Shown here piece after piece: positions 22,754-41,580 of a DNA stretch of 64,000 bases. The position numbers and the translations under genes are program-made. The stretch is from Polaribacter gangjinensis (GTDB lineage Bacteria > Bacteroidota > Bacteroidia > Flavobacteriales > Flavobacteriaceae), in contig NZ_CP150662.1 in the NCBI RefSeq assembly GCF_038024125.1, positions 1,567,501 to 1,631,500 of the forward strand. The letters run 5' to 3'. Numbering within the stretch: position 1 is the first letter of the stretch; each line of letters opens with the position of its first letter. The notes under the pieces are model-generated. The model was not told where the DNA came from. It made no database searches and worked only from the letters and a program-made list of their open reading frames with translations.

Positions 22754-22939
22754 TTACTTTTTAACACCTAATTTTTGCAAGATGATTTCTAACAAACACC
22801 ATTTTGTGAATGCTGATTGTAACATATTTGCGCCAATAAAAACGGTAAACCACATCCAATTGTGATGAACATAAACAGTTAATACAACACTTAATATGAT
22901 GAAAGTGCCTACGATTGCTCTAAAATATTTGTTTAACAT
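22754..22939 (-). CDS. DUF2892 family inner-membrane protein
   Basis: Protein of 61 aa with two hydrophobic helices (about residues 8-26 and 28-45) matching the DUF2892/YgaP membrane-domain pattern: NKYFRAIVGTFI, WFTVFIGANMLQSAFTKWC and a C-terminal CLLEIILQKLGVKK. Such proteins often sit beside rhodaneses, thioredoxins and efflux systems in Bacteroidota. It is the last gene of the RND operon, 19 nt after the PII-like gene. Role unknown; a link to sulfur or metal handling is inference from context. Confidence 0.78.
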   Translation of the reverse strand: MLNKYFRAIVGTFIILSVVLTVYVHHNWMWFTVFIGANMLQSAFTKWCLLEIILQKLGVKK

Positions 22940-22958
22940 TGTTTTTGATTTTTAAAAT

Positions 22959-23264
22959 TTATATTGATTTTTCTATGGGTAAAACGACGGCCCGAACTGG
23001 ATTATTAGTTTCTAAATGAATATTGAATTCCTTTATAAGTTCGAGTAATGCATCAATCTGAGTTTCCTCTGTAAAAGAGAAAAACATATTAGACTCATTA
23101 CCTCCTTTATTACTGCCAAACCAATTTGGTGTAACTACGAATCCGTTTGATGATTTATATCCATCAATAGTTGATTCACTAAAATTCTCAATATTTGCTT
23201 TTTTGAAGAGCTTCAAAATATCATTATGAAACTCTTGAACTGCTGTTACGATTACTAATTTCAT
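22959..23264 (-). CDS. PII-like small protein encoded with the RND pump
   Basis: Soluble protein of 101 aa. The beta-alpha-beta start KLVIVTAVQEFHNDILKLFKKANI and a late strand NPVRAVVLPIEKS suggest the ferredoxin-like PII fold; it resembles the DUF3240-type proteins found beside CusA-like pumps, though I cannot verify the family. A loop (NWFGSNKGGNESN) takes the place of the T-loop. It starts 12 nt after the RND permease stop, so it is cotranscribed and may tune or sense pump activity. Confidence 0.6.
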   Translation of the reverse strand: MKLVIVTAVQEFHNDILKLFKKANIENFSESTIDGYKSSNGFVVTPNWFGSNKGGNESNMFFSFTEETQIDALLELIKEFNIHLETNNPVRAVVLPIEKSI

Positions 23265-23276
23265 GATAGTTAATTT

Positions 23277-26200: not shown

Positions 26201-26471
26201 TCATAGAAGTTGAATATACATACTCAACACCTTTGATATTGGAAATCAATTTTTCTAGTGGTTTGATAACTCTCGATTCTACTTCTGTAGGACTTGCTCC
26301 TGGATATCCCACAAAAATATCTGCCATTGGCACATCAATTTGTGGTTCTTCTTCACGCGGAATTAGAAACGAACTGTACACGCCAATGACCATAAAAACA
26401 ATCATCAACAGCACTGTTAATTTCGAATTCATAAAAACTTTGGCAATTTTGCCAGCTAAACCTTCTTTCAT
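23277..26471 (-). CDS. RND efflux transporter permease (AcrB/CusA superfamily)
   Basis: Inner-membrane proton-driven pump of about 1064 aa, forming a trimer with the adaptor and TolC partners encoded just upstream. It has twelve helices in two repeats and large periplasmic loops. Typical motifs are REEEPQI, GYPGASPTEVE, GIVVDDSIIIAENMHR in helix 4, and GIMVRNSVLLIDF in helix 10. The frame starts at 26495, but those eight residues come from a repeat-like spacer; MKEGLAGK at 26471 is the likelier start. Substrate is unknown; metal, drug or a thiol compound are all possible. Confidence 0.9.
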   Translation of the reverse strand: MKEGLAGKIAKVFMNSKLTVLLMIVFMVIGVYSSFLIPREEEPQIDVPMADIFVGYPGASPTEVESRVIKPLEKLISNIKGVEYVYSTSMKEQGMVIVQFYVGEDIERSFVKLYNEINKHMDQMPKGVTFPLVKTRAIDDVPMLGLTLWSENYDDYQLGQMAQELEAEIKKVNDVAVTNKIGGRERQVRVVLDKDKLASAGLDFLSVSEMINANNAQLNSGYFDKNDTEFIINTGKFLESAQDVENLVVGVQQNQPIYLKQIATIIDGPEVPKNYVSLGFGKASEKSSKFNSEYPAVTISVAKRKGADAMKIADVIIDKVDHLRTTLIPDDVHVEITRNYGETASHKVSELLLHLIGSIIAVTLVVMLAMGWRGGLVVFLSVPITFALTLLSYYMLDYTLNRITLFALVFVTGIVVDDSIIIAENMHRHFKMKRLPFKQAALYAINEVGNPTILATFTVIASVLPMAFVSGLMGPYMAPMPIGASIAMILSLFVALTITPYLGYIFLREKDKAGAEEKPEKPIEETLIYRIYSKFETPLLENKTKRWIFLGGTFALLLATFGLFFTNSVAVKMLPFDNKNEFQVVIDMPEGTTLERTSLVAKEISQYLATRPEVVNYQNYVGTSAPITFNGLVRHYDLRGGSNMADIQVNLVDKSERSAQSHDIAKLLRADIQKIASKFNANVKLVEVPPGPPVLSTIVAEVYGPDYNQQIKIADNIQNILNNTTDVVDVDWMVEADQTEYQFTIDKEKAMLYGVAPQQIAYTMNMALSNRAVTTLYDEDAVKQIGLVLALDESDKSTVKDIAQLKVKSNQGNLVPITDLVTIEETTAAKSIYRKNQKRVVYVLADMAGELESPAYAILGMDKKLKEIPLPKGYELNEMYLGQPDFEDDYTVKWDGEWQITLEVFRDLGIAFLGAIILIYILIVGWFQNFKAPVVMMVAIPLSLIGIILGHWMMGAFFTATSFIGMIALAGIMVRNSVLLIDFINLRLEEGIPLKQAAIEAGAVRTTPILLTAGTVVIGAFVILFDPIFQGLAISLMGGTIVSTILTLLVVPLVYYMIEKKNYK

Positions 26472-26594
26472 ATTTCTATCCCTAACCCTTTCCAAAAGAA
26501 AGGGAATTGTTGCGGGTATTTTTTAATTAATAACTATCTTTTTAAACTGATCACTGAATACTAATTACTGAATACTGATTACTGAATACTAACT
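26472..26594. repeat. hairpin plus three 14-bp tandem repeats in the adaptor-permease spacer
   Basis: The spacer inside the operon holds an inverted repeat CCCTTTC (26486-26492) / GAAAGGG (26498-26504) and three tandem copies of ACTGAATACTRATT-like 14-mers at 26553, 26567 and 26581. The adaptor stop codon lies in the third copy, so the final residues S-I-Q are encoded by the repeat. Confidence 0.75.
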
Positions 26595-27655
26595 TTAGCT
26601 CCATTAAACAATTTTCCATTAGCAGAAACAATGTAACTTTCGTTTGCATTCAATCCTGATAAAACCTCTACTTGATTACCATACGATTTTCCTAAAGTCA
26701 ACCATCGTAAAATGGCTGTATTTGATTGACTTACCGTGTAAACTCCAGATAATTGTCCGTTTGAAATAATAACATCCTTTGGAATTAGAATACTATTTGA
26801 TTTCGCAGTTTTAGCTACAGGAAACTGAACAGTTGCAAACATTCCTGATAAAATAGTATTCGGAGTTTTTGTCAATTGAATTTTCACCAAATATTGACCT
26901 CCTGTATTTTTAGAGGAAGTACTTACTTCTTTTACAATTCCTTTTACAGTTTCATTGATTGATTTTATAGAAACATCTACAGAAATTCCTTGTTTGATAA
27001 CAGAAATTTCAGATTCTGGAACCATAGCAATTACTTCAAAATTGCCTGGAGCTTCCATAGAAATTAACGGTTGACCAGGATTTGCCATATCACCTTTTTC
27101 AATCATTTTGGCAGTTATCACTCCACTAAAAGGTGCTGTGATATTGGTATATGCAAATTGAGAATTGATCTCATTTTTCATTTGATTGGCTGCCTCTAAA
27201 CGTGCTTTTGCCATTTGATAATGAGCAGTTACATCGTCAAATTCTTTTTGAGAAGCACTTTTGTCTTGAAACAAATTTTTAAAACGATTGTAGTCTTTTT
27301 CAGCATTTTTAAAAGCGGCAGTTGCCTCTAAAATACTCGCATTTACTTGAGCTTTTTTTGCTTGTAAATCATCATTATTAATGGCAACTAACAATTGACC
27401 ATTGCTTACTTTATCACCCACATTTACAGGAACATTGGTTACAAAACCCATCATTCTTGTGCTTAGTGTCGCACTTTTTTCTGATTGAATTTTTCCACTT
27501 ACGGATAAAAGTGGGCTGTTGGTATTTTCTGAAATTTGACTCACTGTTACTGTTATTGCTGCTGTATTATCAACAGCTTTTTTTGTGTCTTCACTACCAC
27601 AACTTGCTAGAAATGCAGTCGCTAAAAGTGATATAATTATGGATATTTTTTTCAT
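26579..27655 (-). CDS. RND efflux periplasmic adaptor (membrane fusion protein), lipoprotein
   Basis: Adaptor of 358 aa linking the RND permease to TolC. It has a lipoprotein signal with AFLASC (C19). The order is a barrel-sandwich half (SGKIQSEKSATLSTRMMGFV), a helical hairpin (about residues 105-165), the second lipoyl half (YTNITAPFSGVIT) and beta-barrel regions ending in GLNANESYIVSANGKL. It lies between the TolC gene (43 nt) and the permease gene. The end of the coding sequence falls in a tandem repeat. Confidence 0.9.
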   Translation of the reverse strand: MKKISIIISLLATAFLASCGSEDTKKAVDNTAAITVTVSQISENTNSPLLSVSGKIQSEKSATLSTRMMGFVTNVPVNVGDKVSNGQLLVAINNDDLQAKKAQVNASILEATAAFKNAEKDYNRFKNLFQDKSASQKEFDDVTAHYQMAKARLEAANQMKNEINSQFAYTNITAPFSGVITAKMIEKGDMANPGQPLISMEAPGNFEVIAMVPESEISVIKQGISVDVSIKSINETVKGIVKEVSTSSKNTGGQYLVKIQLTKTPNTILSGMFATVQFPVAKTAKSNSILIPKDVIISNGQLSGVYTVSQSNTAILRWLTLGKSYGNQVEVLSGLNANESYIVSANGKLFNGAKVSIQ

Positions 27656-27698
27656 TTTATATTGATTTTTTAAACTTTAAATTTTGATCTTAAATTGA

Positions 27699-29009
27699 TT
27701 ATTCTTTTGTTAGAAACTGAACATACGCTTGCGCATAATTGTACTCGAAAATTGTTTGATAATACTCTAATTGTTTTTGAGAAAATTGCGTTTCAGCATT
27801 CAGCAAATCCGTTGTTTTTTCTAAACCTTCTTTAAAACGATTGGTTCTAATTCGCAAAGATTCTTCTGATTGATTTAACGCTAATTTTGAAAGCTGAAGT
27901 TTGTTTTCAGCATCTATCAACATACGTTTTGCTTTGTTTAATTCTAAATTACTTTTAGAAACATATTGAGTATATTCCATTTTTGATTTTTCAAATTCGG
28001 CCTTGCTTTTTTGTGCTTTTCCAATGCGTTTTGAACCTTGAAAAATATCCCAACTCAATTGCGCACCTACTAAATATCCATTGGCATCTGCTTGAAAAAT
28101 GTTGTTATCATACAATTCGTAACTTCCAAAGGCATTCAAACGTGGTAAAAAAGCCATTTTATCAGCTTTGTTCATGTCTTTGTATGCTTCAGTTGCCAAT
28201 TGCATTGCCTTGATATCACTACGATTTTCAGAAATTTTCGCATCAATCATTGAAACAGTTTGAATATTTAATTCATCACTAGGAATGTATTGCACATAGC
28301 TTTCATCGTTCATCAAAAAAGACATATAATTGGATGCATTTTGCACATTACTTTTGGCTTGTTGCAAATGATTTTGAACCTCAGTAACGCGAACTTCAAC
28401 ATTCAAAACATCTGCTTTTTGCAAATAGCCTTGTTTGAAACTATTTTCAGCCAATTGTTTATTCGCATTTGCAGCTTCTAACGCTTTTTCTAAAACTGCT
28501 AAAGCTTTATAAGCCAATTGCAATTCCATGTAAGCTTTTTCAACTTCAAAAAGTAAATATTCTTCTGTTCTTTGAGTTTGCAACGATTTTGCTTCCATGG
28601 TTGATTTGGCTGCTTTTCGTTGAAAAACTCCATCTAAATTGATCAAAGGTTGCTCAACTTTAATAATTGTAGCAAAATTTTGAGTTTGAGTTGGATTGTT
28701 TAACAACGCAGGATTGAAATCAGCCTGAGTTAAAATCCCTTGATTTAATTTTGAGCCAAATGCCATTAAAGGATTTGTGGTGGCAAATCCTGTGTGACTT
28801 GCAGTGATATTGGGCAAAAAAATTGCGTTGGTTTGACGATAATCTGCTTTTGCTTTATTGAATTCTTCCGAAGAAATTTTCAATGATAAATTGCGTTCTT
28901 TTATTTTTTGAATGACTGCAGATTTTTCAATCGTAATCATTTCTTGCGCTTGTATTGGAATATACAAAATCAAGATAAAAATGGTAAGATACTTCATTTG
29001 ATATTTCAT
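27699..29009 (-). CDS. TolC family outer-membrane efflux protein
   Basis: Outer-membrane channel of 436 aa with a signal peptide (about residues 1-21), two OEP repeats of long amphipathic helices and the usual LPRLNAFGSYELYD and FEGLEKTTDLLNAETQF stretches. It is the first gene of the operon TolC, adaptor, permease, PII-like, DUF2892. A start at MKYQMKYL or the second Met (MKYLTIFI) gives nearly the same product. A Crp/Fnr-like operator with a -7 box lies upstream. Confidence 0.9.
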   Translation of the reverse strand: MKYQMKYLTIFILILYIPIQAQEMITIEKSAVIQKIKERNLSLKISSEEFNKAKADYRQTNAIFLPNITASHTGFATTNPLMAFGSKLNQGILTQADFNPALLNNPTQTQNFATIIKVEQPLINLDGVFQRKAAKSTMEAKSLQTQRTEEYLLFEVEKAYMELQLAYKALAVLEKALEAANANKQLAENSFKQGYLQKADVLNVEVRVTEVQNHLQQAKSNVQNASNYMSFLMNDESYVQYIPSDELNIQTVSMIDAKISENRSDIKAMQLATEAYKDMNKADKMAFLPRLNAFGSYELYDNNIFQADANGYLVGAQLSWDIFQGSKRIGKAQKSKAEFEKSKMEYTQYVSKSNLELNKAKRMLIDAENKLQLSKLALNQSEESLRIRTNRFKEGLEKTTDLLNAETQFSQKQLEYYQTIFEYNYAQAYVQFLTKE

Positions 29010-29028
29010 TTATATGTTTTTGATGAAG

Positions 29029-29036
29029 CAAAATTA
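29029..29036 (-). promoter_or_regulatory. -7 promoter box of the TolC/RND operon
   Basis: TAATTTTG on the minus strand matches TAnnTTTG, 19 nt before the tolC-like start codon. It lies 21 nt downstream of the GTAAC-N4-GTTAC palindrome, which replaces an obvious -33 element, as expected of an activator-dependent promoter. Confidence 0.65.
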
Positions 29037-29057
29037 GGATGAAAAAAAAGTGTAGTC

Positions 29058-29073
29058 AGTAACATTAGTTACT
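29058..29073 (-). promoter_or_regulatory. Crp/Fnr-type operator of the TolC/RND operon
   Basis: AGTAAC-ATTA-GTTACT, a perfect 6-bp inverted repeat with a 4-nt spacer. Read on the minus strand its 14-nt core GTAACTAATGTTAC is identical to the site at 30801-30816. With 21 nt to the -7 box the centre falls near -41, the class II activator position. The likely ligand is the Crp/Fnr protein encoded at 36329-36970. Confidence 0.65.
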
Positions 29074-29136
29074 TAACAAAATTGATATATTTTGACGTTT
29101 ATCAAAATCTAATCAATACATTATTGATACTGAAAA

Positions 29137-30750
29137 TTAATTTTTTATAAATTTCTTTTCAATGATTTTCGAGGAATTTTTAAAAATCAGCACATATTCT
29201 CCTGATGCAAATTTTGAGATGTCAATAGGTATTTTTTTATTTCCAATTGATTTTTCAATATCAATTTTCTGAATAGTTCTTCCTAATAAATCAAAAATTT
29301 CAACAGTACTTTTTTCAATATTTGGAATAAAAACTTCGAGCGTAATAGAATCTTTTGAAGGATTTGGATATAAATTTAGTTGATACACATTTTTATCTGT
29401 CAATTTTGTTTCTTGAAGACTCAAGGTTGATTTTGTGATAAAAACCTTGAATGCTAAATTACTAGCAGAACTTTGAGTGCCATTATTAATGAAAAAGATA
29501 TTTTCTTGTGTACTTTCAATTCCACCAAAAATGTAACCAATCAAAGTTTTTTCGGTTGGTAAATTGTTTAAATTCAAAATTTCGTGATTCATGTATAAAC
29601 TTGCATTTGAAATCGGAATAAATTCTGCCCCTGAACCCAAAAGTGTTGGCATTTTAATATCTAAAATACTCTCGAGCATTGAACCGTCAGCAAATCTTGA
29701 TACTTTACTGATGGTATTTACAAAAGGAACATTGTCGTCTTTAATCAAATTATTGTTTGCATCTAATTTATACTGACTCATTCCTCCAAAAAATAAAGTA
29801 TGCATAGAGTTATTTTCGCTATCAAACACCGGAATTTTTGCACTGTGATACTGACTCAAATATTGATTAAAAGTGTTGTTTACTGTATACCCATTTTCAT
29901 AAACATCAACTGTATTTAGCCAAGGTAAATTCACAGAATGTTGAAAAACACCACTAAACATGGTAAATCCCTGAGAACCATCAGGAAAAATTTGAGGCGC
30001 CATATTATAATCTCTTCTGTGTAAATTATTGCTGTCTTTTTGGGCATTATAATTTGTTATTGAAAGATTTGTTCCGTCATCAATAATTTGAAAAGTTCTA
30101 ATTTCTTCGGTATAAACTTGGGTAAAACCAGTGGCATTATTTGGTCCTTGTGGATTGTATTTTCCTTTAAAATACTGTCCTCCACACAAATAAAAAGTGT
30201 TATTCAAAAAACCCAATTGTCCTCCAGTTACTGCCAAATTCGGATTTGAAATTTGTCTAAAAAAAGATGAAATTGCTTGATTATTGATAACAGCATTTGC
30301 CAAACCATCTACATTAATTGCAGTTAATTTATCATACGTTACATGATCATTTTGAGTTGCACTAAAACCATAACCCCCAATAATATACAAGGTGTTTTCA
30401 CGCTGATAAAACTCTTGATTGGTTGCTTGTAATTGTTCAAAAATTGGGGCTGATAAAACACTCAAAGAAGCACTCCAAGTTTGATTATTTTGGGGATCAA
30501 CAACAAAAACATTTTTGTTATTGTCATTTTCTAAAAACGATGAAAAAGGCTGTCTTTGATGCAAACCATCTATTCTTCCTCCTAGTATGATCCATTTTCC
30601 ATCCGTAGTTTTTCCTACAGAATATGAATGAACATTTGGGGCATTTGCAATGGTTAATGGTTCTATTTGTACTGTAAATTGCTCTTGAGAAACCAATAAA
30701 GTGGTCATCAAAAGAAATAAATTTAGTAGTAAAAAGGTATGATTTTTCAT
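29137..30750 (-). CDS. secreted Kelch-like beta-propeller protein with T9SS type A sorting domain
   Basis: Exported protein of 537 aa: signal peptide (about residues 1-21, ending LLVSQ), a region of about six propeller-like repeats with GG turns (IILGGRID, YIIGGYGF, YLCGGQYF, LFFGGMSQY, IFGGIEST), and a C-terminal type A sorting domain from about 455 (LNLYPNPSKDSITLEV, ending EKKFIKN). It should cross the outer membrane through the type IX system and be anchored on the surface. Its start codon is 51 nt from a Crp/Fnr-like site shared with the divergent copper-type genes. Ligand unknown. Confidence 0.82.
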   Translation of the reverse strand: MKNHTFLLLNLFLLMTTLLVSQEQFTVQIEPLTIANAPNVHSYSVGKTTDGKWIILGGRIDGLHQRQPFSSFLENDNNKNVFVVDPQNNQTWSASLSVLSAPIFEQLQATNQEFYQRENTLYIIGGYGFSATQNDHVTYDKLTAINVDGLANAVINNQAISSFFRQISNPNLAVTGGQLGFLNNTFYLCGGQYFKGKYNPQGPNNATGFTQVYTEEIRTFQIIDDGTNLSITNYNAQKDSNNLHRRDYNMAPQIFPDGSQGFTMFSGVFQHSVNLPWLNTVDVYENGYTVNNTFNQYLSQYHSAKIPVFDSENNSMHTLFFGGMSQYKLDANNNLIKDDNVPFVNTISKVSRFADGSMLESILDIKMPTLLGSGAEFIPISNASLYMNHEILNLNNLPTEKTLIGYIFGGIESTQENIFFINNGTQSSASNLAFKVFITKSTLSLQETKLTDKNVYQLNLYPNPSKDSITLEVFIPNIEKSTVEIFDLLGRTIQKIDIEKSIGNKKIPIDISKFASGEYVLIFKNSSKIIEKKFIKN

Positions 30751-30771
30751 AATTTGTTAGGTTAGTATTTA

Positions 30772-30779
30772 CAAATTTC
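30772..30779 (-). promoter_or_regulatory. -7-like box of the secreted propeller gene
   Basis: GAAATTTG on the minus strand matches five of the six fixed bases of TAnnTTTG. It is exactly 21 nt from the operator at 30801-30816, the same distance as in the TolC promoter. Confidence 0.5.
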
Positions 30780-30800
30780 TGAAAATTACTGCGTGATTTT

Positions 30801-30816
30801 GGTAACTAATGTTACC
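30801..30816. promoter_or_regulatory. Crp/Fnr-type operator in a divergent promoter region
   Basis: GGTAAC-TAAT-GTTACC, a perfect 6-bp inverted repeat with 4-nt spacer between the secreted propeller gene (minus) and the CxGKC protein gene (plus). On the minus strand a near-consensus -7 box lies 21 nt away. On the plus strand the octamer 21 nt away (TCTAATTG, 30838-30845) matches only four of six fixed positions, so activation of the plus-strand genes is less sure. Confidence 0.65.
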
Positions 30817-30882
30817 GAAAAAGCATTTAAAAAAAAGTCTAATTGCTCAAATATTAGAATCCATTATAGTAATTTTACCCCC

Positions 30883-31257
30883 ATGAAAAAACATCCATTA
30901 TTTTTTTCAGTGTTTTTCAGTTTCATCCTTTTGTATAGCACTTTGAGGGTTTCATTTACGTATATATATTATACTGTTGATCCAATTGGTTTTATTGAAG
31001 AATTGTGCGAAAACAAAGACACTCCAGAAATGCAATGTAATGGAAAATGTCAATTAAAAAAGGTATCAGAAAGTAGTCAATCTTCAGAGAAAGTACCTGT
31101 CAATTTAATTGATTTTAAAGAACTTATCTTATACAAAGAAACTCTACAATCTTATACAAAATTGTCTTTTTTTGAAAAAAATCTCACCTTATTTTCGTAT
31201 TTAAACAACTATACCTATTTAAATACAGAATCGAGTTTTCATCCACCAAAAGTTTAA
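30883..31257 (+). CDS. small membrane protein with CNGKC motif
   Basis: Protein of 124 aa from the Met at 30883; the open frame upstream runs over the operator and is not credible. One hydrophobic segment (about residues 7-28, FFSVFFSFILLYSTL) is followed by a likely periplasmic part with ELCENKD and MQCNGKCQLKK. The CxGxC motif with a nearby third Cys suggests metal binding. I recall short proteins of this type near copper-related TonB receptors in Bacteroidota, but no function is established. It heads a plus-strand group with the lipoprotein and receptor genes. Confidence 0.68.
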   Translation: MKKHPLFFSVFFSFILLYSTLRVSFTYIYYTVDPIGFIEELCENKDTPEMQCNGKCQLKKVSESSQSSEKVPVNLIDFKELILYKETLQSYTKLSFFEKNLTLFSYLNNYTYLNTESSFHPPKV

Positions 31258-31374
31258 TTTATTTTTTTGATTCTAGATTATGAATCATGCAAAAATGTAT
31301 CAATTGGTTTAAGTTTTACCTCTTAAACTAAAGGTTTTTGTTATACACATATATTAAAAATAAATAAAATTAAA

Positions 31375-32223
31375 ATGAAACCATATTTTAAAAAAATAGC
31401 AATCTTATTGGTTGCAACCATTGCATTTGCATCTTGTTCAAAAGAGGTAAATGAAACAGAAATGAATGAATTAGAGGGATTAACTAAAATAAGAGAACTG
31501 TCAAATTCAACACATACTATAGAATTGTACTCAAAAAAAGGAGAATTAACTGTAGGTTTTAATGAAATAAAACTAAGAATTTTAGATAACACTTCAGATA
31601 TTTTTGTAAAAAATGCACAAGTTTCTTGGATGCCAGTAATGCACATGATGATGATGAATCATTCTTGTCCAAAATCAACTGTAGAAAAAGTGGCTGATGA
31701 AGGAAATTTATACGAAGGATATATCATGTTTCAAATGGCTGAAAATGCATCAGAATATTGGGATTTAACAATTGATTATACCATAAATGGTGTTGACTAT
31801 TCAATTACTTCTGAAATTGATGTGCTTGCAACTGAAAAAAGAACTGTTAATTCATTTACTGGTTCAGATAATGAAAGATATTTAGTCACTTACATAGAAC
31901 CAACTGAACCTAAAGTTGCCATTAACGACATGAAAATTGGGGTTTGGAAAATGGAAAATATGATGAGTTTTCCAATGGTAAATGATTACACCGTGAAAAT
32001 TGACCCAAGAATGCCAAGTATGGGAAATCACTCATCACCCAATAATGAAAATGCAACTCAAAGCAATCCTGATGATTTTTATGAAGGAAAATTATCATTA
32101 ACAATGACTGGTTATTGGAAAATAAATCTGCAATTGGCAAAAGCGGATGGTACTATTTTGAAAGGAGAAGAAATTACAAGTACTGTTGAATCTAGCAGTA
32201 TTTTCTTTGAAATTGAATTTTAA
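31375..32223 (+). CDS. Met/His-rich lipoprotein with two YtkA/FixH-like domains (putative copper binding)
   Basis: Lipoprotein of 282 aa (IAFASC, C20). Two beta-sandwich-like halves each carry a candidate metal site: SWMPVMHMMMMNHSCP (about residues 84-100) and KIDPRMPSMGNHSS (about 203-216). The first half holds VGFNEIKLRILD, typical of YtkA-like domains. Clustered Met and His with one Cys point to Cu(I) binding in the periplasm. It precedes the TonB-dependent receptor by 44 nt and is probably cotranscribed. Copper as ligand is inference. Confidence 0.72.
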   Translation: MKPYFKKIAILLVATIAFASCSKEVNETEMNELEGLTKIRELSNSTHTIELYSKKGELTVGFNEIKLRILDNTSDIFVKNAQVSWMPVMHMMMMNHSCPKSTVEKVADEGNLYEGYIMFQMAENASEYWDLTIDYTINGVDYSITSEIDVLATEKRTVNSFTGSDNERYLVTYIEPTEPKVAINDMKIGVWKMENMMSFPMVNDYTVKIDPRMPSMGNHSSPNNENATQSNPDDFYEGKLSLTMTGYWKINLQLAKADGTILKGEEITSTVESSSIFFEIEF

Positions 32224-32226
32224 TTT

Positions 32227-32254
32227 AATCAAAGTTCAAATTTGAACTTTGATT
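32227..32254. repeat. 28-bp perfect palindrome between lipoprotein and receptor genes
   Basis: The half AATCAAAGTTCAAA (32227-32240) is followed directly by its exact reverse complement. It lies 3 nt after the lipoprotein stop and 13 nt before the receptor start. It may be an attenuator or RNA-stability hairpin that lowers receptor expression; no T tract follows, so a full terminator is unlikely. Confidence 0.7.
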
Positions 32255-32267
32255 TAAACCTTTCTAA

Positions 32268-34262
32268 ATGAGAGATTTATCAACAGTGTTTTTGCTGTTT
32301 TTGGGTTTTGGATTTTTATCAGCTCAAAACAAAGAAAAAGACACTACTAAAATCATACAATTAAAAGAAATTGTTTTAATAGGTAAAAAAGCAGCTATTT
32401 ATCAAAATCAAGCAAAGTCTTTGGGTAGTATTGATGGGTATTTAAACCAATCTTCACTCATAAATATGATAAAACGTGGAGCGTATGCTTGGGAACCAAT
32501 CATCAATAATATGGCAACTGAAAGAACCTTGGTAACAATTGATGGAATGCGAATTTTTGGTGCTTGTACTGATAAAATGGATCCTATAACATCGTATGTT
32601 GAAGTTACCAATCTTTCAGAAGCAACAGTAAAAGATGGACAATCAGGAAGTCTTTTTGGCAATACAATTGGTGGCTCTATTGATTTAAAAAGGAACAAAA
32701 CAATTTTTGGAGAAAAAAAACTGGAAGTCCAATTTCAATCGGGATTTGAATCAAATAATAGTCAAAAAATATTAGGAAGTTCCTTGAATTTTAAAAATGA
32801 TAAATTTTACTTTGATTTGGATGTAATGATCAGAAATGCAGAAAACTATAGCGCAGCAAACAATCAAGAAGTTTTATATTCTCAGTTTAACAAACTCAAT
32901 TTTTCGAATATTTTTGGTTTTAAAATAAAAGAAAACAAATTGCTAGAAACCTCTGTAATTTATGATAAAGCAACTGATGTTGGATATCCTGCATTGACTA
33001 TGGATGTTTCTTTGGCTGAAGCTCTCATAACATCCTTAAAATATGAAGTAATTCCTAAGAATTCAACAATCGAAAATTGGGAAACCAAAATTTATTTTAA
33101 CACCATAAAACATGTAATGGATGATACAACGCGTCCAAATGTACCTATTCATATGGATATGCCAGGTTGGAGCGAAACATTTGGATTTTATTCAAAGTTG
33201 ACATATAGTTTTGAAAAACATCATTTTTTAGTCAATTTGAATTCATTTTACAATAAATCACTGGCTGAAATGACGATGTATCCCAATAATCCAAACGAAA
33301 ACTTGATGTTTATGCTTACTTGGCCAGATGTACGAACTTTGTATAATGGTGTTTTTATTGAAGACAGTTTTAATGTGAGTAAAAATTCAAATCTTACATT
33401 GAATATTTCATTAGGAAACCATTTGAATACAGTTGCTTGTCAATTCGGATTGAAAAGTTTACAAATTTTTTATCCAGAAATGTCTGATAAAAAAAATAGA
33501 TTTCTAAAAAGTTTTGGGGCTAATTACCATTTTTCTAAATCAGGATTTGAGTATCATTTTGGAATTGCTTATAGTGAACGAGCACCCTCTGTATCTGAAG
33601 GTTATGGATTTTACCTGTTCAATAGTTTTGATGGTTATGACAATATTGGAAATCCAAATTTGAAAAATGAATCAGCATTTGAAAGCAATTTTTCAATTGG
33701 ATTGAAAAAAGAAAAATTTAGGATAAAAGCAAATGCCTCTTACTTTTATTTTTATGATTATATCATTGCTAAAACAGATTCAAGTTTATCACCAATGACA
33801 CTTGGAGCAAATGGTGTTCGTGTTTATTCGGCCTTAGAAAATGCTGCAATTTTAAATACCAGCCTTTCATTTGAATATTTTATAAATCAATTTTTTACTT
33901 GGAATGTACAAACAACGTATGCACTAGGTAAAACCAATGACAACGAATATTTGCCATTTATCAGTCCATTTAGTTATATAAGTTCGTTGAGTTTCAAAAA
34001 AAATAAATTTATTAGTGAAATTCAATTAGTTGGCAATGCAACTCAATCCAATTTCAATCCTGAATTTGGCGAAGATCAAACACCTAATTTTGCGATTATA
34101 AATACCAATACTGGTTATACATTTAAATTTGACAAAAATGATTTGATGTTAAAAACAGGAGTTGAAAATGTATTTGATAAAAATTATTCTACCTATGCTG
34201 ATTGGAACAATATTCCAAGAATGGGAAGGAATTTTTATGTGAATTTGAATTATGTATTTTAA
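32268..34262 (+). CDS. TonB-dependent receptor, copper-receptor (OprC/NosA)-like
   Basis: Outer-membrane receptor of 664 aa with signal peptide (ends LSAQ). The plug domain (about residues 30-145) contains IDGMRIFGACTDKMDPITSYVE, the CxxxMDP pattern I associate with copper receptors of the OprC/NosA group, and GSLFGNTIGGSIDLKR. The 22-strand barrel ends NFYVNLNYVF with the terminal Phe. There is no N-terminal carboxypeptidase-like domain, as in SusC proteins. The preceding Met/His-rich lipoprotein supports metal uptake or binding. Confidence 0.82.
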   Translation: MRDLSTVFLLFLGFGFLSAQNKEKDTTKIIQLKEIVLIGKKAAIYQNQAKSLGSIDGYLNQSSLINMIKRGAYAWEPIINNMATERTLVTIDGMRIFGACTDKMDPITSYVEVTNLSEATVKDGQSGSLFGNTIGGSIDLKRNKTIFGEKKLEVQFQSGFESNNSQKILGSSLNFKNDKFYFDLDVMIRNAENYSAANNQEVLYSQFNKLNFSNIFGFKIKENKLLETSVIYDKATDVGYPALTMDVSLAEALITSLKYEVIPKNSTIENWETKIYFNTIKHVMDDTTRPNVPIHMDMPGWSETFGFYSKLTYSFEKHHFLVNLNSFYNKSLAEMTMYPNNPNENLMFMLTWPDVRTLYNGVFIEDSFNVSKNSNLTLNISLGNHLNTVACQFGLKSLQIFYPEMSDKKNRFLKSFGANYHFSKSGFEYHFGIAYSERAPSVSEGYGFYLFNSFDGYDNIGNPNLKNESAFESNFSIGLKKEKFRIKANASYFYFYDYIIAKTDSSLSPMTLGANGVRVYSALENAAILNTSLSFEYFINQFFTWNVQTTYALGKTNDNEYLPFISPFSYISSLSFKKNKFISEIQLVGNATQSNFNPEFGEDQTPNFAIINTNTGYTFKFDKNDLMLKTGVENVFDKNYSTYADWNNIPRMGRNFYVNLNYVF

Positions 34263-34274
34263 AATCTAAATTAA

Positions 34275-34306
34275 AAAGAGGACATTTTTTAAAAAATGTC
34301 CTCTTT
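34275..34306. terminator. bidirectional terminator, 32-bp perfect palindrome
   Basis: AAAGAGGACATTTTTT (34275-34290) followed by its exact reverse complement, between the convergent receptor and methyltransferase genes. The GC-rich base of the stem and flanking A/T runs allow termination in both directions. Confidence 0.75.
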
Positions 34307-34318
34307 AAACTAAAATAT

Positions 34319-34912
34319 TTAAGTCTTAGTTATTGTATTTTTAAAAACACAAAACAACTCCATTCCTGCTCTAGAATTTATTGAGTTAAAAGCATTTTCC
34401 ATAATTTCTATGGAGAAATAAGGTTCAAAATAGGCTTTATATTCTTCTTTATTGCCTCCAAAAGGCGGATGATTGTCATTCAGTTTTGCATCAAAAAGAA
34501 GACCAACTAATTTGCCATTTGGCTTTAAAAGTTCGTTCATTTTTTTGGCATAATTTGCTCTTAAATTTGGATGAATAGCACAAAAAAAGGTTTGTTCTAC
34601 AATCAAATCAAATGAATTATTGATGTCAAAAAAGTTAGCATGAATTAACTGTGAAGTTGGAAAATCAGGAATTCTTTGTTGGATATTTTTCAACGCAATT
34701 TCTGACAAGTCTACTACAAAAACATTTTGAAATCCGTTTTTAAAAAGCCATTCCGCCTCGTAAGAATTGCCTCCACCAGGAATTAAAATTTTGATGTTTT
34801 TATGTGTAAGTTGTTCAAAATATGCTTTTAATGGCGGAGAAATTTCGCCTAAATCCCATCCAATTTGATTGTTTTTATATTTTGTATTCCAAAAATCTGC
34901 TGATAAATCCAT
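34319..34912 (-). CDS. TPMT-family SAM-dependent methyltransferase
   Basis: Soluble protein of 197 aa. It starts ADFWNTKYKNNQIGWDLG, the hallmark of thiopurine methyltransferase-like enzymes, followed by the SAM motif ILIPGGGNSYEAEWL, the acidic strand end VVDLSE, and EQTFFCAIHP with PPFGGNKEEY. Bacterial members methylate thiols, thiocyanate-like or metalloid substrates such as tellurite or selenium compounds. It sits next to thioredoxin and a metal-type module, in line with detoxification, but the substrate is not shown by the sequence. Confidence 0.85.
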   Translation of the reverse strand: MDLSADFWNTKYKNNQIGWDLGEISPPLKAYFEQLTHKNIKILIPGGGNSYEAEWLFKNGFQNVFVVDLSEIALKNIQQRIPDFPTSQLIHANFFDINNSFDLIVEQTFFCAIHPNLRANYAKKMNELLKPNGKLVGLLFDAKLNDNHPPFGGNKEEYKAYFEPYFSIEIMENAFNSINSRAGMELFCVFKNTITKT

Positions 34913-34935
34913 CCTCTAAAATTATACTTTTTATG

Positions 34936-34968
34936 ATAAAAAAAGCACCTGAAATAAATTCCAGGTGC
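34936..34968 (-). terminator. intrinsic terminator after thioredoxin
   Basis: Read on the minus strand: GCACCTG, a 10-nt loop, CAGGTGC, then a run of seven T. It follows the thioredoxin stop by about 25 nt and separates it from the methyltransferase gene. Confidence 0.82.
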
Positions 34969-34992
34969 CAACTAACCAACTATTATAAAAAA

Positions 34993-35289
34993 CTAACTAA
35001 ATTTATTAATAATTGAAACTAACTCTCTTTTTTGAACCATGCCTGATTGTCTCCAAACTTGCTGACCTTTATTATACAAAACCAATGTTGGCACACCTCT
35101 CACTTGAAATTGAGACGCCAAATTTTGATTTTTGTCTACATCAATTTTAATGATGGAAACTTTTTCACCCAATTCATCTTTTACTTCTTTTAAAATTGGA
35201 CTCATCATTTTGCAAGGTCCACACCATTCTGCAAAAAAATCGACCAAAACTGGTTTTTCTTGATTGATTAGTGATGAAAAATTGCTCAT
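34993..35289 (-). CDS. thioredoxin
   Basis: Thiol-disulfide reductant of 98 aa with the classical active site WCGPC (C23, C26), the cis-Pro loop GVPTLVLY and VDVDKN-like IKIDVDKN. No signal peptide, so cytoplasmic. It starts 8 nt after the cytochrome lipoprotein gene stop and shares its transcript, thus the operator at 36318. An additional thioredoxin in such a context is often stress-related rather than the main housekeeping one. Confidence 0.92.
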   Translation of the reverse strand: MSNFSSLINQEKPVLVDFFAEWCGPCKMMSPILKEVKDELGEKVSIIKIDVDKNQNLASQFQVRGVPTLVLYNKGQQVWRQSGMVQKRELVSIINKFS

Positions 35290-35297
35290 AATTTATT

Positions 35298-36281
35298 TTA
35301 TTTTTTGAACGTAATATTCCAAATTCCTCTTACTTCATTAATATCATAGCCAATAGCTTTATCATTTGGATACTTTTTTTGAATAACTGCAAAAGTATTA
35401 TCCGAAACTTCACCTTTTAGATTTCCATGACATTGCAAACACATACTATTGGTAACAATTGGATAATAAACACTAGCAATATTATTCTTCTCAACTAGAA
35501 TTGGCTCAGAATCTATGTTTTTTTTGATTTCTTCTTTAAAAATATCAATGTACTTTTCTTCTTCTAAAGTTGCTTTGTTTTTACTATTTCTTGGTTTATC
35601 AGAAACTCTTTTTATAGAAACATTATTCACTAAAGCCATGCTATCTGTTAAAGACAATGCTTTGATATTACAAAATTCTATAGCAGCAATTGTGCCTTGT
35701 TTTTGTATTTTTCCCATCAAATTTTTACCCAAAACAGCTTTGGTTTCTAAGGCAATTCTCAACCCATACTCTTTAAAAGAATTAGTTGATTTATAAAGAT
35801 TTGCTTCATTTTTTTGCTCTTTCATCATGCCTTTTCCTTGCCCTTTTTTTCCATGATTTTCATCATATCCTTGAGGTTTTTCTACGTCATTATCAAACAA
35901 ATAATCTGCAATTTCACGAATGGCTTTATCAGAATAATATTGTTTTGGCATCAATCCAAATTTCTTTACTGCGTTTGGCATTTTGGAGTTTTCAACAGTA
36001 GGATTCTTCACAAATTTTTGAATGTCTTTGATAAAATCTTCTTTGCTAATCCCTTTTGTTAAATAATGATTCTTGATGGCAATCATAGGAGGAGCAATTC
36101 TGTTTTGTTCTGCTGTTTTTGGATTGTGGCAAATGTAACATTGCATTTCCATAAGTTTTTTTCCTGGATGTTTTTCTTGAACAACATCTGGTGCTATAGA
36201 TTTCATTGCATAAACTGGTTTTTCAGATTTTTGACATCCGAAAAAAATAGCAATTATAAAAATGGTGATATACTGTTTCAT
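35298..36281 (-). CDS. lipoprotein fusing cytochrome c and DUF3365 heme domains
   Basis: Envelope lipoprotein of 327 aa (FFGC, C16). The N-terminal part is a monoheme cytochrome c domain: CYICH (C48, C51, H52) with a later Met ligand candidate in NSKMPN. After a charged linker (about 138-165) comes a DUF3365/Tll0287-like domain with a second heme motif CLQCH (C281, C284, H285) and ending EVRGIWNITFKK. It would carry electrons or sense redox state in the periplasm. It is cotranscribed with thioredoxin and has a Crp/Fnr-like site upstream. Confidence 0.86.
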   Translation of the reverse strand: MKQYITIFIIAIFFGCQKSEKPVYAMKSIAPDVVQEKHPGKKLMEMQCYICHNPKTAEQNRIAPPMIAIKNHYLTKGISKEDFIKDIQKFVKNPTVENSKMPNAVKKFGLMPKQYYSDKAIREIADYLFDNDVEKPQGYDENHGKKGQGKGMMKEQKNEANLYKSTNSFKEYGLRIALETKAVLGKNLMGKIQKQGTIAAIEFCNIKALSLTDSMALVNNVSIKRVSDKPRNSKNKATLEEEKYIDIFKEEIKKNIDSEPILVEKNNIASVYYPIVTNSMCLQCHGNLKGEVSDNTFAVIQKKYPNDKAIGYDINEVRGIWNITFKK

Positions 36282-36289
36282 TTGATTAC

Positions 36290-36297
36290 AAAATTAT
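36290..36297 (-). promoter_or_regulatory. -7 promoter box of the cytochrome-thioredoxin operon
   Basis: TAATTTTG on the minus strand, identical to the box of the TolC operon, 20 nt downstream of the palindrome at 36318-36333 and 8 nt before the start codon. The leader would be very short. Confidence 0.55.
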
Positions 36298-36317
36298 ATT
36301 CTTTAAACATTTTTTTC

Positions 36318-36333
36318 AGTAACAAAAGTTACA
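36318..36333 (-). promoter_or_regulatory. Crp/Fnr-type operator of the cytochrome-thioredoxin operon
   Basis: A-GTAAC-AAAA-GTTAC-A: perfect 5-bp arms with 4-nt spacer, the same arms as at 29058 and 30801. The right arm contains the stop codon of the Crp/Fnr gene itself (36329-36331), so operator and coding end overlap. Confidence 0.6.
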
Positions 36334-36970
36334 ATACTAATACTTTGATACTGTTTCTAAACAGTTTGATTTTACCTTCGTTTTCTAACTTTTTTAAAAG
36401 TCTTGAAATAACAACTCTTGAAGTGTGCAAATCATCAGAAATTTCATTGTGGGTTGTGTAAATTACATCATCATGCGTAATCATTGCTTTGTCTTTCAGA
36501 TATTTATACAATCGTTCATCCATTTTTAAAAAGGCAATCGTATCAATAGCTTCTAACAATTCATCTACTCTCGCATGGTAACTTTGCAATATGAAAGCTT
36601 GCCAAGATTTGTATTTTGCCAACCATTCTCCCATTTTTTCCTTGGGAATCATAATGATATCAACATCAGTTTCGGCAATTGCAGCAATTTTGCTTTTGGT
36701 TTGTCCTAGACAACAAGACAATGTCATGGCACAAGTATCGCCTTTTTCTAAATAATACAAAACCAATTCCTCACCTTGCTCATCTTCTCGCAAGATTTTG
36801 ATTGCTCCTTTTAAAATGAGTGGCATGGATTTGATATATTCTCCAACTCCAATTATGGGAGTATTTTTGGGAATGGTTTTGTACACACCAACTTTTTGAA
36901 TTTCATCAATTAATTCCTCTTCAAATAAATATCCAAAATTGGTTTGCAAGTAGTGTTTTTCATCAGACAT
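36329..36970 (-). CDS. Crp/Fnr-family transcriptional regulator with Cys-rich sensor loop
   Basis: Regulator of 213 aa. The N-terminal cyclic-nucleotide-like beta-barrel (about residues 25-115) lacks an evident cAMP-binding signature and instead has TCAMTLSCCLG (C80, C86, C87), which could bind metal, an Fe-S cluster or react with thiols. A dimer helix follows (115-145), then the winged HTH (about 160-205) with NEISDDLHTSRVVISRLLKKLE. It adjoins the cytochrome/thioredoxin operon and is the obvious candidate to bind the three GTAAC-N4-GTTAC sites. Activation is inferred from site position. Confidence 0.86.
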   Translation of the reverse strand: MSDEKHYLQTNFGYLFEEELIDEIQKVGVYKTIPKNTPIIGVGEYIKSMPLILKGAIKILREDEQGEELVLYYLEKGDTCAMTLSCCLGQTKSKIAAIAETDVDIIMIPKEKMGEWLAKYKSWQAFILQSYHARVDELLEAIDTIAFLKMDERLYKYLKDKAMITHDDVIYTTHNEISDDLHTSRVVISRLLKKLENEGKIKLFRNSIKVLVL

Positions 36971-37026
36971 AGATACTAATTTTAGTAAAAAGATAAAGTT
37001 AGTAAATAGTACTCAAAAAAATACTA

Positions 37027-38346
37027 TTAAAAGGCAACATTTAAAATATCTCCACTCAATTGCAATAACTGAATTTCAATTAATTTTGCATCGAATTTTG
37101 CATTGTTGAATGCCGTTTTTGCATTGATTAAATTGATTTGAGCTTGTCTAAATTCAATAGATGTTACTTGTCCTAATTTATAACGCTCTTCTGTTCTGTT
37201 GAAATTATTTTGATTTGTCAACACATTTTTTTCTTGAGCACTTAACACAAACAACTGATTTTGATAGTTTTCCCAGGTATTTTTTAAATTATTTTGGATG
37301 GTTGTTTTTTGTTGTTCTAACAAAATTTGCTGATTTTCTAAGGCTATTTTTGCGTTGGCAACTCGTGTTTTTGTTGCGCCTCCATCAAACAAATTCCATG
37401 TTAAATTCAATCCTGCATTTAAACCTGTAATAGTTGCTCCAGCCAAAAATGATGTTGCAGGGTTGTCACTTTGATTCCATCCGTAAGAAGATGTCAAACC
37501 CAACCTTGGTAAATATTGCGATTTATTAATTTTGATATTGAATTCACTAATGGCAATATTTTGTTCGTTTTGTTTTAACAACGCATTGTTTGCCATTGTT
37601 TTTTGCAACAAATCATCAAAATTCATCATTTTATTGAAATCAACCTCTGTTTCAACAGCATAATTTGGTTCTTTGTCAATTCCTAAAATGACGTTTAAAC
37701 CACGTTTTGCATTGTTTAGTTGTTGCTTTGCGGTGATGTAAGAAATGCTATCATTATTTACATCTACCTCAGCATTTAGCAATTCTAATTTGGTTGATTG
37801 CCCGAAATTGTATTGATAATTAGCACGCTCTAAACGTCTTTTTGAAATTAAAAGTGCCTCAGATAAATTTTGAGTATTTTCAGACAATCTAGCAATTTGA
37901 AAGTAAATGGTAAACAATTGGACATAGGTATTTTCAATGGTTTCTCTAGCTTGGATTTCGCTTAAATTATAGGTTTCTTTTAATTGTTGATAATTGTATT
38001 TTCGTCCTAAACCATCAAAAAGAGTGTAATTTAAACTCAAAGCTGCATTGTACGATTTTGTTACAGCACCATCAATACTTCTATTTGTTCCGTCTTGAAA
38101 TGTTACATCTTGATTTTCTCTTCTGTAATTTGTACCTGATGTTGCTGCAATTGTTGGTAAAAATCCAGTGTTTAAAACAGAGGCATTGTTTTTGGCAACT
38201 TCTAGATTGTTGTTGGCAATTTTAATTCCGAAATTGTTTTCAAGTGTAATTTCCAGCGCTTGTTTTTTGGTTAAAATTTCTTGAGAAAATCCTTGAAAAA
38301 CCGAAAGAAATATAATTATTAAGAGATTGTATTTTATTGATTTCAT
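37027..38346 (-). CDS. TolC family outer-membrane efflux protein (second system)
   Basis: Outer-membrane channel of about 439 aa. The frame runs upstream over the permease 3' end, but the Met at 38346 begins a good signal peptide (KSIKYNLLIIIFLSVFQGFSQ) and starts 4 nt after the permease stop, so I choose it. Two OEP helical repeats are clear, for example RLERANYQYNFGQSTKLELLNAEVDV and the matching RTEERYKLGQVTSIEFRQAQ. It is the last gene of the operon adaptor, permease, TolC. Confidence 0.9.
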   Translation of the reverse strand: MKSIKYNLLIIIFLSVFQGFSQEILTKKQALEITLENNFGIKIANNNLEVAKNNASVLNTGFLPTIAATSGTNYRRENQDVTFQDGTNRSIDGAVTKSYNAALSLNYTLFDGLGRKYNYQQLKETYNLSEIQARETIENTYVQLFTIYFQIARLSENTQNLSEALLISKRRLERANYQYNFGQSTKLELLNAEVDVNNDSISYITAKQQLNNAKRGLNVILGIDKEPNYAVETEVDFNKMMNFDDLLQKTMANNALLKQNEQNIAISEFNIKINKSQYLPRLGLTSSYGWNQSDNPATSFLAGATITGLNAGLNLTWNLFDGGATKTRVANAKIALENQQILLEQQKTTIQNNLKNTWENYQNQLFVLSAQEKNVLTNQNNFNRTEERYKLGQVTSIEFRQAQINLINAKTAFNNAKFDAKLIEIQLLQLSGDILNVAF

Positions 38347-38350
38347 AAGA

Positions 38351-41300
38351 TTATTTTTTAAGTGCATCTTCAGCATCATTATCATCACTTTCTTGTTCAT
38401 ATTCAATTTCCATTAAAGCTCTTTCTACTTCTTCTTTAGTAACATTATTTCCTGTTTTTAACCATTTGATACCCACTTTTATGGAGTTTGAAACAGATAA
38501 TAAAATAGGTAACATTACAAGAGTTAAAAGGGTTGCAATGGCAATTCCGTAAGCAATGGAAATTGCCATCGGAATTAAAAATTGAGCTTGCCTGCTTTTT
38601 TCAAAAATCAGCGGCCCTAACCCTGCAATTGTAGTGATTGAGGTTAATAAAATAGCTCTAAATCTTGATTGACCAGCCATAATTAAAGCTTCATCAAATT
38701 TAACACCTTCCTTTAAATAACCATTAAATTTACCAATCAAAACCAAACCATCATTTACCATAATTCCGATTAAAGCAATGATTCCTAACCATGATAAAAT
38801 TCCGATTGGAAAACTATGAATATAATGTCCCCAAACCACACCAATCATACTAAAAGGTATCATTAAAATCAATAAAATTGGCTGACTGTAAGAACGGAAT
38901 GTAAATGCAATCACTAAATAAATTAACAATAAAATGATAGGGCCTACAACATTCACAGAATCTGTGGTTTTTTTTGCTTCTCGATTTTGACCTTCATACA
39001 AAGGTGAAACTGAAGGATATTTTGATAAAATTGGAGGCATCACACGTGTTTTAATATCCTCTAAAATTTCTGTAGCTGTATCTGCTTTGTTTTTTAAATC
39101 CGCAGTTACTTGAATTTCACGTTTTCCAGACAAATGATTGATAGCAATATCACCACGCTCAATAGTATAATTGGCAATTTCCGAAAAAGGAATTCTACTT
39201 CCATTTGGAGCAATAATGCGCATTTCATCTAAATTTTTAATCGATGAACGATCTTTTTTGTCATAACGAACCCACACTTTTATTTCGTCTTGACCACGTT
39301 GAAAACGCTGTGCTTGAAATCCGAAGAAACCATCACGCACTTGCGCCATTACTGACTGTAAATTCAAGCCTAATAAATACGCATTGTCTTTTAAAGTGAT
39401 TTTAATTTCTTTGATTCCTGCAGGATCATTATCAACAACATCTTTTAATGCGGCATTATTTAAAAGCGATTGTTTTAATTCTTCTTTGGCAGCTTTCAAT
39501 TCTCCAATATTATTACCAAGCAAAGAAACTGCAACAGGACTTCCTCCAAAATTTCCACCAGAACCAAATACTAGACTTTCAACACCATAGACTTTTCCAA
39601 CAACATCGCTAATTCTATTAGTAATTTCTGGAGATGAAAAATCTCTTGCCTCACCTGGTAATAAATTGACTGTCAAACTCCCGCTTGCACTTCCAGGACC
39701 AATTCTTTTGATGATATTTTCAACCACAGGAATATTTCCAGTTTGTTTTTCTGTATATTCTTTATGAACTAACCACACTTTTTCTTCGATCATAGAAATG
39801 ATTGAATCTGTGATTTTTTCATTGGTTCCTTGTGGCATTTTCAAGGATATTTGAATCTGATCACTTGCAATAGAGGGAAAAAACGAGGTTTTTACAATGC
39901 CTCCACCAATTGCTGAAAAACTAAAAATCAATAAAGCCAAAGGAATTGAAAAAGCAAATAGTTTGTTTTTTAAAGAAAATCTCAAAAACGGCATGTAATA
40001 ATTATCCCTTACTTTTACTAACCAACTATCAGCAACTAGATTTACTTTATTGAAAAAAGTATCAAATTTATTTTGTTTGATTTCTTCGCCATTTTCAGTT
40101 TTCTTTCTTTCTAAAGTTCTTGAGTGAACAATATGTGCAGGTAAAATAATTAACGCTTCTAATAACGAAACTGACAAAGTTAAAATTACAATGGTAGAAA
40201 CTTCACCAAAGAAACTTCCGATATTTCCGTCTACAAAAAAGAAGGTAGAAAAGGCAATCAATGTTGTTAAAATTGCAGAAACAATGGGCGGAATTACTTC
40301 CATAGTTCCATCAATTGCGGCTCTAATTTTTGATTTTCCTAAATCGTAATAATGATGGTAAATATTTTCACCAATTACAATTCCATCATCCACCAAAATT
40401 CCGATTACAATAATCATCCCAAAAAGTGATAATACATTGATGGTAACATTGAATTGCGCTGCAAAAATAAACATCCCAAAAAATGCGATTGGCAAACCAA
40501 AAGCTACCCAAATTGCCAAACGAACATTTAGAAAAAGTGCCAAGAAAAAGAGTACCAATAAAATGCCGACAATACCATTTTCTATTAATAATTTTGTTCT
40601 TCCATTTAATGTTGTACTTCTATCACTGGTTACATTTAACTGAATATTTTGTTGCTTTTGATTGAATTCGTAAATGTAGTCTTTGATTTTATCGGCTGTA
40701 GATAGCAAATCTTCGCTATTGGTATTACTCACTGTAATATCAATTGCTAAATCATCATTAAAATACAGTCTATCAGGAATTTCAGACCAAGTATCTTTAA
40801 CATTTGCAACATCTTTTAAACGGATAATGGTTCCATTTGGTTGTGTTCTTACAATTAAGTTTTGCAAATCATCTCCATAATAAGAACGATTGCTTGCTCT
40901 GATCAAATAATCTTCTTGAGGTGTTTTTATATTTCCACCAGTAATTAAAATATTGGCATTTCTTACGGCATTTGCAACCTCAGTAAACGATAAATTATAG
41001 GCTAATAAATCATTTTCACGAACCGCAATTTCAATTTCTTCTTCAGGAAAACCAGATATGGCAATTTGTGAAATTCCCTCAATACCACGAATATCGTTTT
41101 CTATATTTCTGGCATATTGTTTCAAGGTTTTCAAAGTAACGCCTTGACCACTCACTGTAAAACTAATAGTTGGTCGTAAATTCTCCACTTTTGCAATTAC
41201 AGGAGGTTCTAAACCTACAGGAAAAGAGGGAATTCTATCAACCGCATTTTTAACATCAGACAAAACAACATCAATATTCTGTCCTTTAAAAACCTCGACA

Positions 41301-41578: not shown

Positions 41579-41580
41579 GC

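Follow-up and report, generated by a model that had tools for sequence, protein, structure and literature searches.

A Crp/Fnr-type regulator linked to the palindrome GTAACN4GTTAC and its probable role in sulfide and sulfane-sulfur defence in Polaribacter gangjinensis

Why should an efflux pump, a secreted surface protein and a cytochrome c-thioredoxin pair share one palindrome next to the gene of a Crp/Fnr-type regulator? Here, we analysed a stretch of 64,000 nucleotides (the window) from the 2.94 Mb genome of Polaribacter gangjinensis (one contig, C1), in which the minus-strand gene at 36329-36970 encodes such a regulator of 213 amino acids. The palindrome GTAACN4GTTAC is found there exactly at three sites, all read on the minus strand: 29059-29072 (site 1), 30802-30815 (site 2) and 36319-36332 (site 3). 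We consider it likely that the regulator binds GTAACN4GTTAC and acts as class II activator in a regulon for defence against sulfide and sulfane sulfur; a nearly invariant CX5CC cysteine set is its candidate sensor.

The original prediction, made from the letters of the window alone, had named these three palindromes and had noted that the first two share their core in opposite orientation; both points are correct, sites 1 and 2 being mutual reverse complements (GTAACATTAGTTAC and GTAACTAATGTTAC). Its view that chance is an unlikely cause agrees with our shuffles, since six matches with up to one mismatch were counted in the window compared to a shuffle mean of 0.74, and 0 of 100 shuffles reached six. 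The whole genome holds seven exact sites, three of them in one 7.3 kb section of the window, compared to 12 for a backward-read control pattern. One-mismatch places number 113 genome-wide compared to 229 for the control, so that degenerate matches in P. gangjinensis are background, a broad degenerate motif is ruled out and the motif itself is not over-represented. The case is therefore one of placement, geometry and comparison with relatives.

The -7 box (TAnnTTTG) lies 22 nt from the edge of the 14-mer at all three sites, and not 21, 21 and 20 nt away as first given. Site 1, read as operator of a TolC-RND operon, faces the exact box TAATTTTG at 29029-29036 (minus), and site 3, which overlaps the stop codon of the regulator gene and is read as operator of a cytochrome c-thioredoxin operon, faces the same exact TAATTTTG at 36289-36296 (minus). 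Site 2 is a putative operator between a kelch-like gene (minus) and YtkA/TonB genes (plus); a box-like GAAATTTG with one mismatch lies 22 nt away at 30772-30779 on its minus side only, and the corresponding 8-mer on the plus side, TCTAATTG, has two mismatches by eye. The claimed common geometry hence holds exactly for sites 1 and 3, with one mismatch for the minus side of site 2, and fails on its plus side. The -7 box occupies -12 to -5 in Flavobacterium psychrophilum according to PMC9723704, which together with the 22 nt gap sets the palindrome centre at -41.5, as had been predicted with a value near -41. Sigma70-type promoters in 22500-37500 were no commoner than in shuffles (75 versus 77.0).

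Homologues of the regulator were found in 126 of 149 genomes of the family (E<=1e-10) and in 72 of the 295 class genomes (E<=1e-50), and 60 orthologue regions comprising 1.19 Mb were compared. These regions contain 113 exact motifs at 50 loci and none of the reversed control. Among all 5-mer palindromes with spacers of 0-12, the motif ranked first (113 versus 0.65 expected), and ranks 2 and 3 (34 and 24 versus 2.75 expected) are shifted frames of the same GTAAC word. With the window included, 114 of 116 sites are intergenic in DNA with a coding fraction of 0.87, and 115 lie no more than 350 bp from a gene start. The motif withstands the computable refuting conditions of the original prediction, namely placement and conservation with the regulator. 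Box geometry was assessed in 126 site-gene pairs from these 116 sites, 100 of the pairs belonging to single-target sites. At exactly 22 nt, the box was present in 55 pairs without mismatch and in 94 with up to one, compared to means of 0.09 and 1.2 and maxima of 1 and 4, respectively, at other distances (0-19 and 26-59). The same 126 pairs show no TTG peak at the position of a -33 element, in agreement with activation by a protein bound there. A dyad centred near -41.5 and a -7 box that needs no -33 element are the geometry of class II Crp-type activators, from which we infer class II activation by the regulator, the start positions being taken from the predicted box.

Does the Crp/Fnr protein itself bind these sites? 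A scan of the 149 family genomes for motif plus box (gap 21-23) gave 224 matches compared to 4 for the control. Of the 116 genomes that carry a close orthologue (E<=1e-55), 97 contain such a match, compared to 3 of the 33 without one, namely 23 with no homologue (three of them assigned by elimination) and 10 with a distant homologue only; the densities are 0.551 and 0.034 per megabase. Around 43 regulators with valine in the recognition helix (Val types) from other families of the class, we counted 23 motifs where 0.20 are expected. The link between GTAACN4GTTAC and the Crp/Fnr regulator is thus strongly supported, in line with the candidate named at the outset, and chance palindromes are ruled out by shuffles, reversed controls, palindrome ranking and genome scan. 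It could still be argued that another regulator occupies the GTAAC sites and that the Crp/Fnr gene is a mere neighbour or itself a target: binding by the Crp/Fnr protein is deduced from sequence comparison, a site precedes the regulator gene itself in three loci, and most loci with glutamate in the helix (Glu types) lack both motif variants near the gene. We regard this as highly improbable, as motif plus box tracks the regulator across genomes, unlinked places included, and in one lineage the half-site word has changed together with the residue in the recognition helix. Moreover, P. gangjinensis has only one further Crp/Fnr-like match, a weak one with 25% identity across residues 24-130.

The recognition helix reads TSRVVISRLL, and its R185, V186 and R190 are invariant in 61 of 61 family proteins. 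In the class, 22 non-duplicate regulators have glutamate at position 186 (three duplicate loci, L118, L124 and L130, were dropped from all Val/Glu counts). The commonest place of a site in relatives is near the 3' end of the regulator gene; from -60 to +200 of this end, Val types have the exact GTAAC motif in 49 of 103 loci and the GTGAC variant in none, compared to 0 and 3 of 22 Glu types. Over whole regions, 4 of 22 Glu types have GTGACN4GTCAC and 1 of 22 has GTAAC; the 43 Val types outside the family have no GTGACN4GTCAC. In a tree of 85 regulators, calculated with the recognition-helix columns left out, one lineage has Glu instead of Val and GTGACN4GTCAC instead of the GTAAC motif. Mutants of CRP with altered specificity at residue 181 would lead one to expect such a change, and Val/GTAAC and Glu/GTGAC form a natural helix/operator variant pair. 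A motif common to most Glu-type loci was not found, and most of them show neither GTAAC nor GTGAC. When eleven regulon genes were used as queries in longer class regions, at least one was present in 16 of 18 Val types and in 6 of 22 Glu types, with thioredoxin and rhodanese matches being unspecific. Near the Glu types L136-L142, L154, L158, L162-L167 and L171, all eleven genes are missing and, in most cases, a recognised motif is missing as well; these regulators retain the cysteines C80 and C86 discussed below.

If the regulator is the activator, what does it respond to? The genes behind its sites in relatives are mainly sulfur genes, cluster names being those of Pfam matches of representative proteins only. 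Around the regulator, the largest target clusters are persulfide dioxygenase (PDO)/rhodanese (32 proteins, 24 loci) and TauE (26 loci), followed by TolC-RND (9), YeeE (9), SQR-like (7) and cytochrome c (6) clusters; SulP, heavy-metal-like and desaturase-like proteins and the regulator itself account for three each. Smaller clusters include a polysulfide-reductase-like protein, a molybdoenzyme and cytochrome bd. A second set, 30 of the 224 motif-plus-box matches, has as first targets TolC (7), TauE (6), PDO (5), a small protein followed by DoxX (4) and SulP (3), and as single cases rhodanese, cytochrome bd, Thioredoxin_9, YgaP-like/YeeE and a porin-like protein (the last two by eye); 17 of these 30 loci lie at a distance of over 10 kb from a regulator gene or on a different contig. 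Judged by gene content, the regulator would control SQR, PDO/rhodanese and sulfite or thiosulfate transport, the set that defines a sulfide/sulfane-sulfur regulator. Since sites in relatives precede sulfur genes, the RND, cytochrome c and thioredoxin operons of the window are best read as part of a sulfide/sulfane-sulfur response. The original list of RND pump, cytochrome c/thioredoxin and propeller gene is retained and is no odd mixture; its copper module is only weakly supported. In L183, L188, L192 and L205, a small protein of about 105-125 amino acids (no Pfam match), DoxX and a further gene without Pfam match stand behind motif and box; this small protein-DoxX operon of four genomes is a candidate for an undescribed sulfur-linked operon.

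Much of this gene set is under persulfide-sensing regulators in Acinetobacter, and we therefore take the window cluster to be the local part of such a regulon. According to PMC7315123, the FisR/BigR regulons of Acinetobacter baumannii comprise SQR, persulfide dioxygenase, TauE and YeeE/YedE, the same kinds of regulated genes as proposed here, and sulfide also induces cydAB and the copper receptor OprC. The proteins differ in fold, FisR being a sigma54 activator and BigR a repressor, and an RND pump, present in the regulon described here, did not appear in a word search of that text ('rnd', 0 hits).

A metal response would explain some of the same genes: the three cysteines of the regulator could bind a thiophilic metal or metalloid (copper, arsenic, tellurium), with RND pump, YtkA, TonB receptor and TPMT as its targets. 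The TonB receptor indeed matches the copper model TIGR01778, albeit under its cut-off, and heavy-metal-like small proteins (cluster 10, named by eye) lie near the regulator in 13 loci. However, sites in relatives stand most often before PDO/rhodanese, TauE and YeeE genes, a metal gene is the first target in 0 of 30 motif-plus-box loci, and the copper-receptor genes of the window lack a fitting box. A copper gene would suit the sulfide reading as well because sulfide induces OprC in Acinetobacter (PMC7315123). We thus rejected a copper regulon on the targets in relatives and hold metal sensing in general to be quite improbable.

The regulator is a member of the Crp/Fnr superfamily, with Pfam cNMP_binding at 41 bits (cut-off 27.5) and HTH_Crp_2 at 28.4 bits (cut-off 27). 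Its named nearest homologues are from Polaribacter (75-78% identity), other homologues reaching up to 96%. Its only cysteines are residues 80, 86 and 87, and this CX5CC set aligns to the stretch that holds the cyclic-nucleotide (cAMP) cassette in CRP. C80 is present in 61 of 61 family and 65 of 65 class proteins (126/126), C86 in 59 of 61 and 62 of 65 (121/126), C87 in 58 of 61 and 54 of 65 (112/126), and the majority of the 61 family proteins have no cysteines besides this set. An alternative signal would be oxygen, nitric oxide or the general redox state (FNR/DNR-like or thiol stress), the sulfide genes then belonging to a respiratory regulon. In its favour, genes for cytochrome bd and cytochrome c are among the targets and the cysteines could react with other oxidants; yet, the targets are dominated by sulfur transport and oxidation genes, and a 4Fe-4S sensor of FNR type is ruled out, as the N-terminal cysteine cluster is absent. 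We consider a redox or respiratory signal improbable and regard persulfide or polysulfide as the candidate signal, although sulfide or another thiol-reactive compound may take this role.

Escherichia coli CRP is alike in fold family, recognition-helix arginines and class II position, but its equivalog model gives 57.7 bits only (cut-off 266), the regulator has Val where CRP has Glu181, and the cassette residues are replaced: Glu72 and Arg82 of CRP align by eye with M82 and K92. NtcA of cyanobacteria is a Crp-family activator whose site GTAN8TAC is centred at about -41.5 (PMC3898017), and the palindrome described here fits both that word and that position. NtcA answers nitrogen status, though, whereas the present targets are sulfur genes, and the NtcA equivalog model scores 49.4 bits with a cut-off of 244.95. 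The best solved-structure match is PDB 3dv8, a Crp/Fnr-family regulator of unknown function (E 1.1e-13), with a CX5C pair that aligns by eye with C80 and C86 and, unlike the Val of the present regulator, a Glu in the recognition helix.

We propose that the Crp/Fnr dimer would bind GTAAC-N4-GTTAC centred near -41.5, beside a TAnnTTTG -7 box without -33 element, and would recruit RNA polymerase as a class II activator. The signal may be persulfide or polysulfide, perceived via C80 and C86 (and C87) at the site of CRP's cyclic-nucleotide cassette. Switched on would be the TolC-RND pump operon, the cytochrome c-thioredoxin operon and the secreted protein of the window, together with unlinked targets, namely the sulfide:quinone oxidoreductase (SQR) gene sqr along with a DsrC-like gene, and a gene of the thioredoxin family. 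On balance, we also favour the broader view that Bacteroidota own a dedicated sensor of this kind, a Crp/Fnr protein with the cassette turned into a CX5CC thiol switch, common in the family and present in many families of the class, which would activate a core of SQR, persulfide dioxygenase, TauE and YeeE/YedE as well as an RND pump, possibly an exporter of a reactive sulfur species. The sulfide/persulfide sensors found in our literature searches are of other kinds (FisR, BigR, SqrR and MarR types). Among the open-access papers listed in these searches, none describes a sulfide regulator of the Crp/Fnr type in Bacteroidota, which is weak evidence of absence, also as part of the search wording could miss 'Crp/Fnr'. 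If the proposal is true, a large group of environmental bacteria has a sulfide switch with an operator of 14 bp, a constant distance to the promoter and a cysteine cassette, and the RND pump and several uncharacterised small proteins gain a physiological frame.

Several observations weigh against this proposal. An exact site is lacking in 10 of the 60 regulator regions, and motif plus box in 19 of the 116 genomes with a close orthologue. SQR promoters of relatives have the box without mismatch in 0 of 7 and with one mismatch in 4 of 7 cases, and the sqr site of P. gangjinensis itself has none at 22 nt. The PDO and TauE genes of P. gangjinensis have no exact or one-mismatch site nearby, and the kelch-like gene forms a single-member target cluster, being a target nowhere else among the loci compared. 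GTGACN4GTCAC occurs five times in the 60 Val-type family regions and is missing in exact form near the regulator end in 19 of 22 Glu-type loci. Finally, the helix/operator switch is one evolutionary event, since the three Glu types with GTGAC near the regulator end nest together and their sister L148 has Val and GTAAC.

Outside the window, P. gangjinensis has four exact sites. One at C1:11022 precedes sqr, which is followed in the same direction by a DsrC-like gene (PF04358), all in the region C1:9522-12535 (L001); in the sqr promoter, TAATTTTG lies 49 nt from the GTAAC site (by eye). Another at C1:1877522 stands before a Thioredoxin_9 gene and has the exact box at a distance of 22 nt; a Thioredoxin_9 gene is a target in the locus L201, too. 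We did not treat the remaining two as promoter sites: C1:996173 lies inside an open reading frame (ORF) and C1:1927517 where two convergent ORFs end. The PDO gene (C1:2104838) is preceded by an FNR-like palindrome TTGATAAAAATCAG (L102:1433), with TAAATTTG following after 22 nt, the same class II geometry with another word; control of this gene in P. gangjinensis may have shifted to another regulator of the Crp/Fnr type.

Within the window, site 1 stands before a predicted operon at 22754-29009 (minus; gaps of 43, 83, 12 and 19 nt between ORFs) for a TolC-like protein (27699-29009; Pfam OEP), a membrane fusion protein (26579-27655; HlyD), an RND permease (23277-26495; ACR_tran), a small protein without Pfam or NCBIfam match (22959-23264) and a YgaP-like transmembrane protein (22754-22939; YgaP-like_TM). 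All nine TolC promoters bearing a site, the window included, have the exact -7 box at 22 nt, and all NCBIfam matches of the pump are under their cut-offs. The last two genes have recurring homologues in regulator regions (clusters 22 and 23), the small protein in 6 of 61. A second TolC-RND-fusion set at 37027-42696 directly adjoins the regulator and has no exact GTAAC site in front.

The target of site 2 is probably the kelch-like gene at 29137-30750 (minus), whose secreted product has a type IX secretion system (T9SS) sorting tail (Por_Secre_tail). On the plus side of site 2 follow a small protein (30883-31257), a YtkA-like protein (31375-32223; Pfam YtkA) and a TonB-dependent receptor (32268-34262; TonB-copper TIGR01778, E 3e-39, 135 bits with a cut-off of 472), for which the two mismatches to the box at 22 nt make control by site 2 doubtful (30883-34262). 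Behind site 3, the predicted operon at 34993-36281 (minus) encodes a cytochrome c with Tll0287-like domain (35298-36281, by profile matches) and a thioredoxin (34993-35289), and oriented cytochrome c promoters have the exact box at 22 nt in four of five cases. The TPMT-like methyltransferase gene at 34319-34912 (minus; Pfam TPMT) may fall outside this operon because it lies beyond a terminator-like hairpin (34944-34969), a feature that is not commoner in the scanned stretch than in shuffles (5 versus 6.2). Elsewhere in the window, the plus-strand ORFs 20288-20770 and 21969-22244 resemble by eye the start and end of a single GDSL-type lipase/esterase gene, with the minus-strand IS3-type transposase-like ORFs 20807-21466 and 21619-21885 (by eye) interrupting it.

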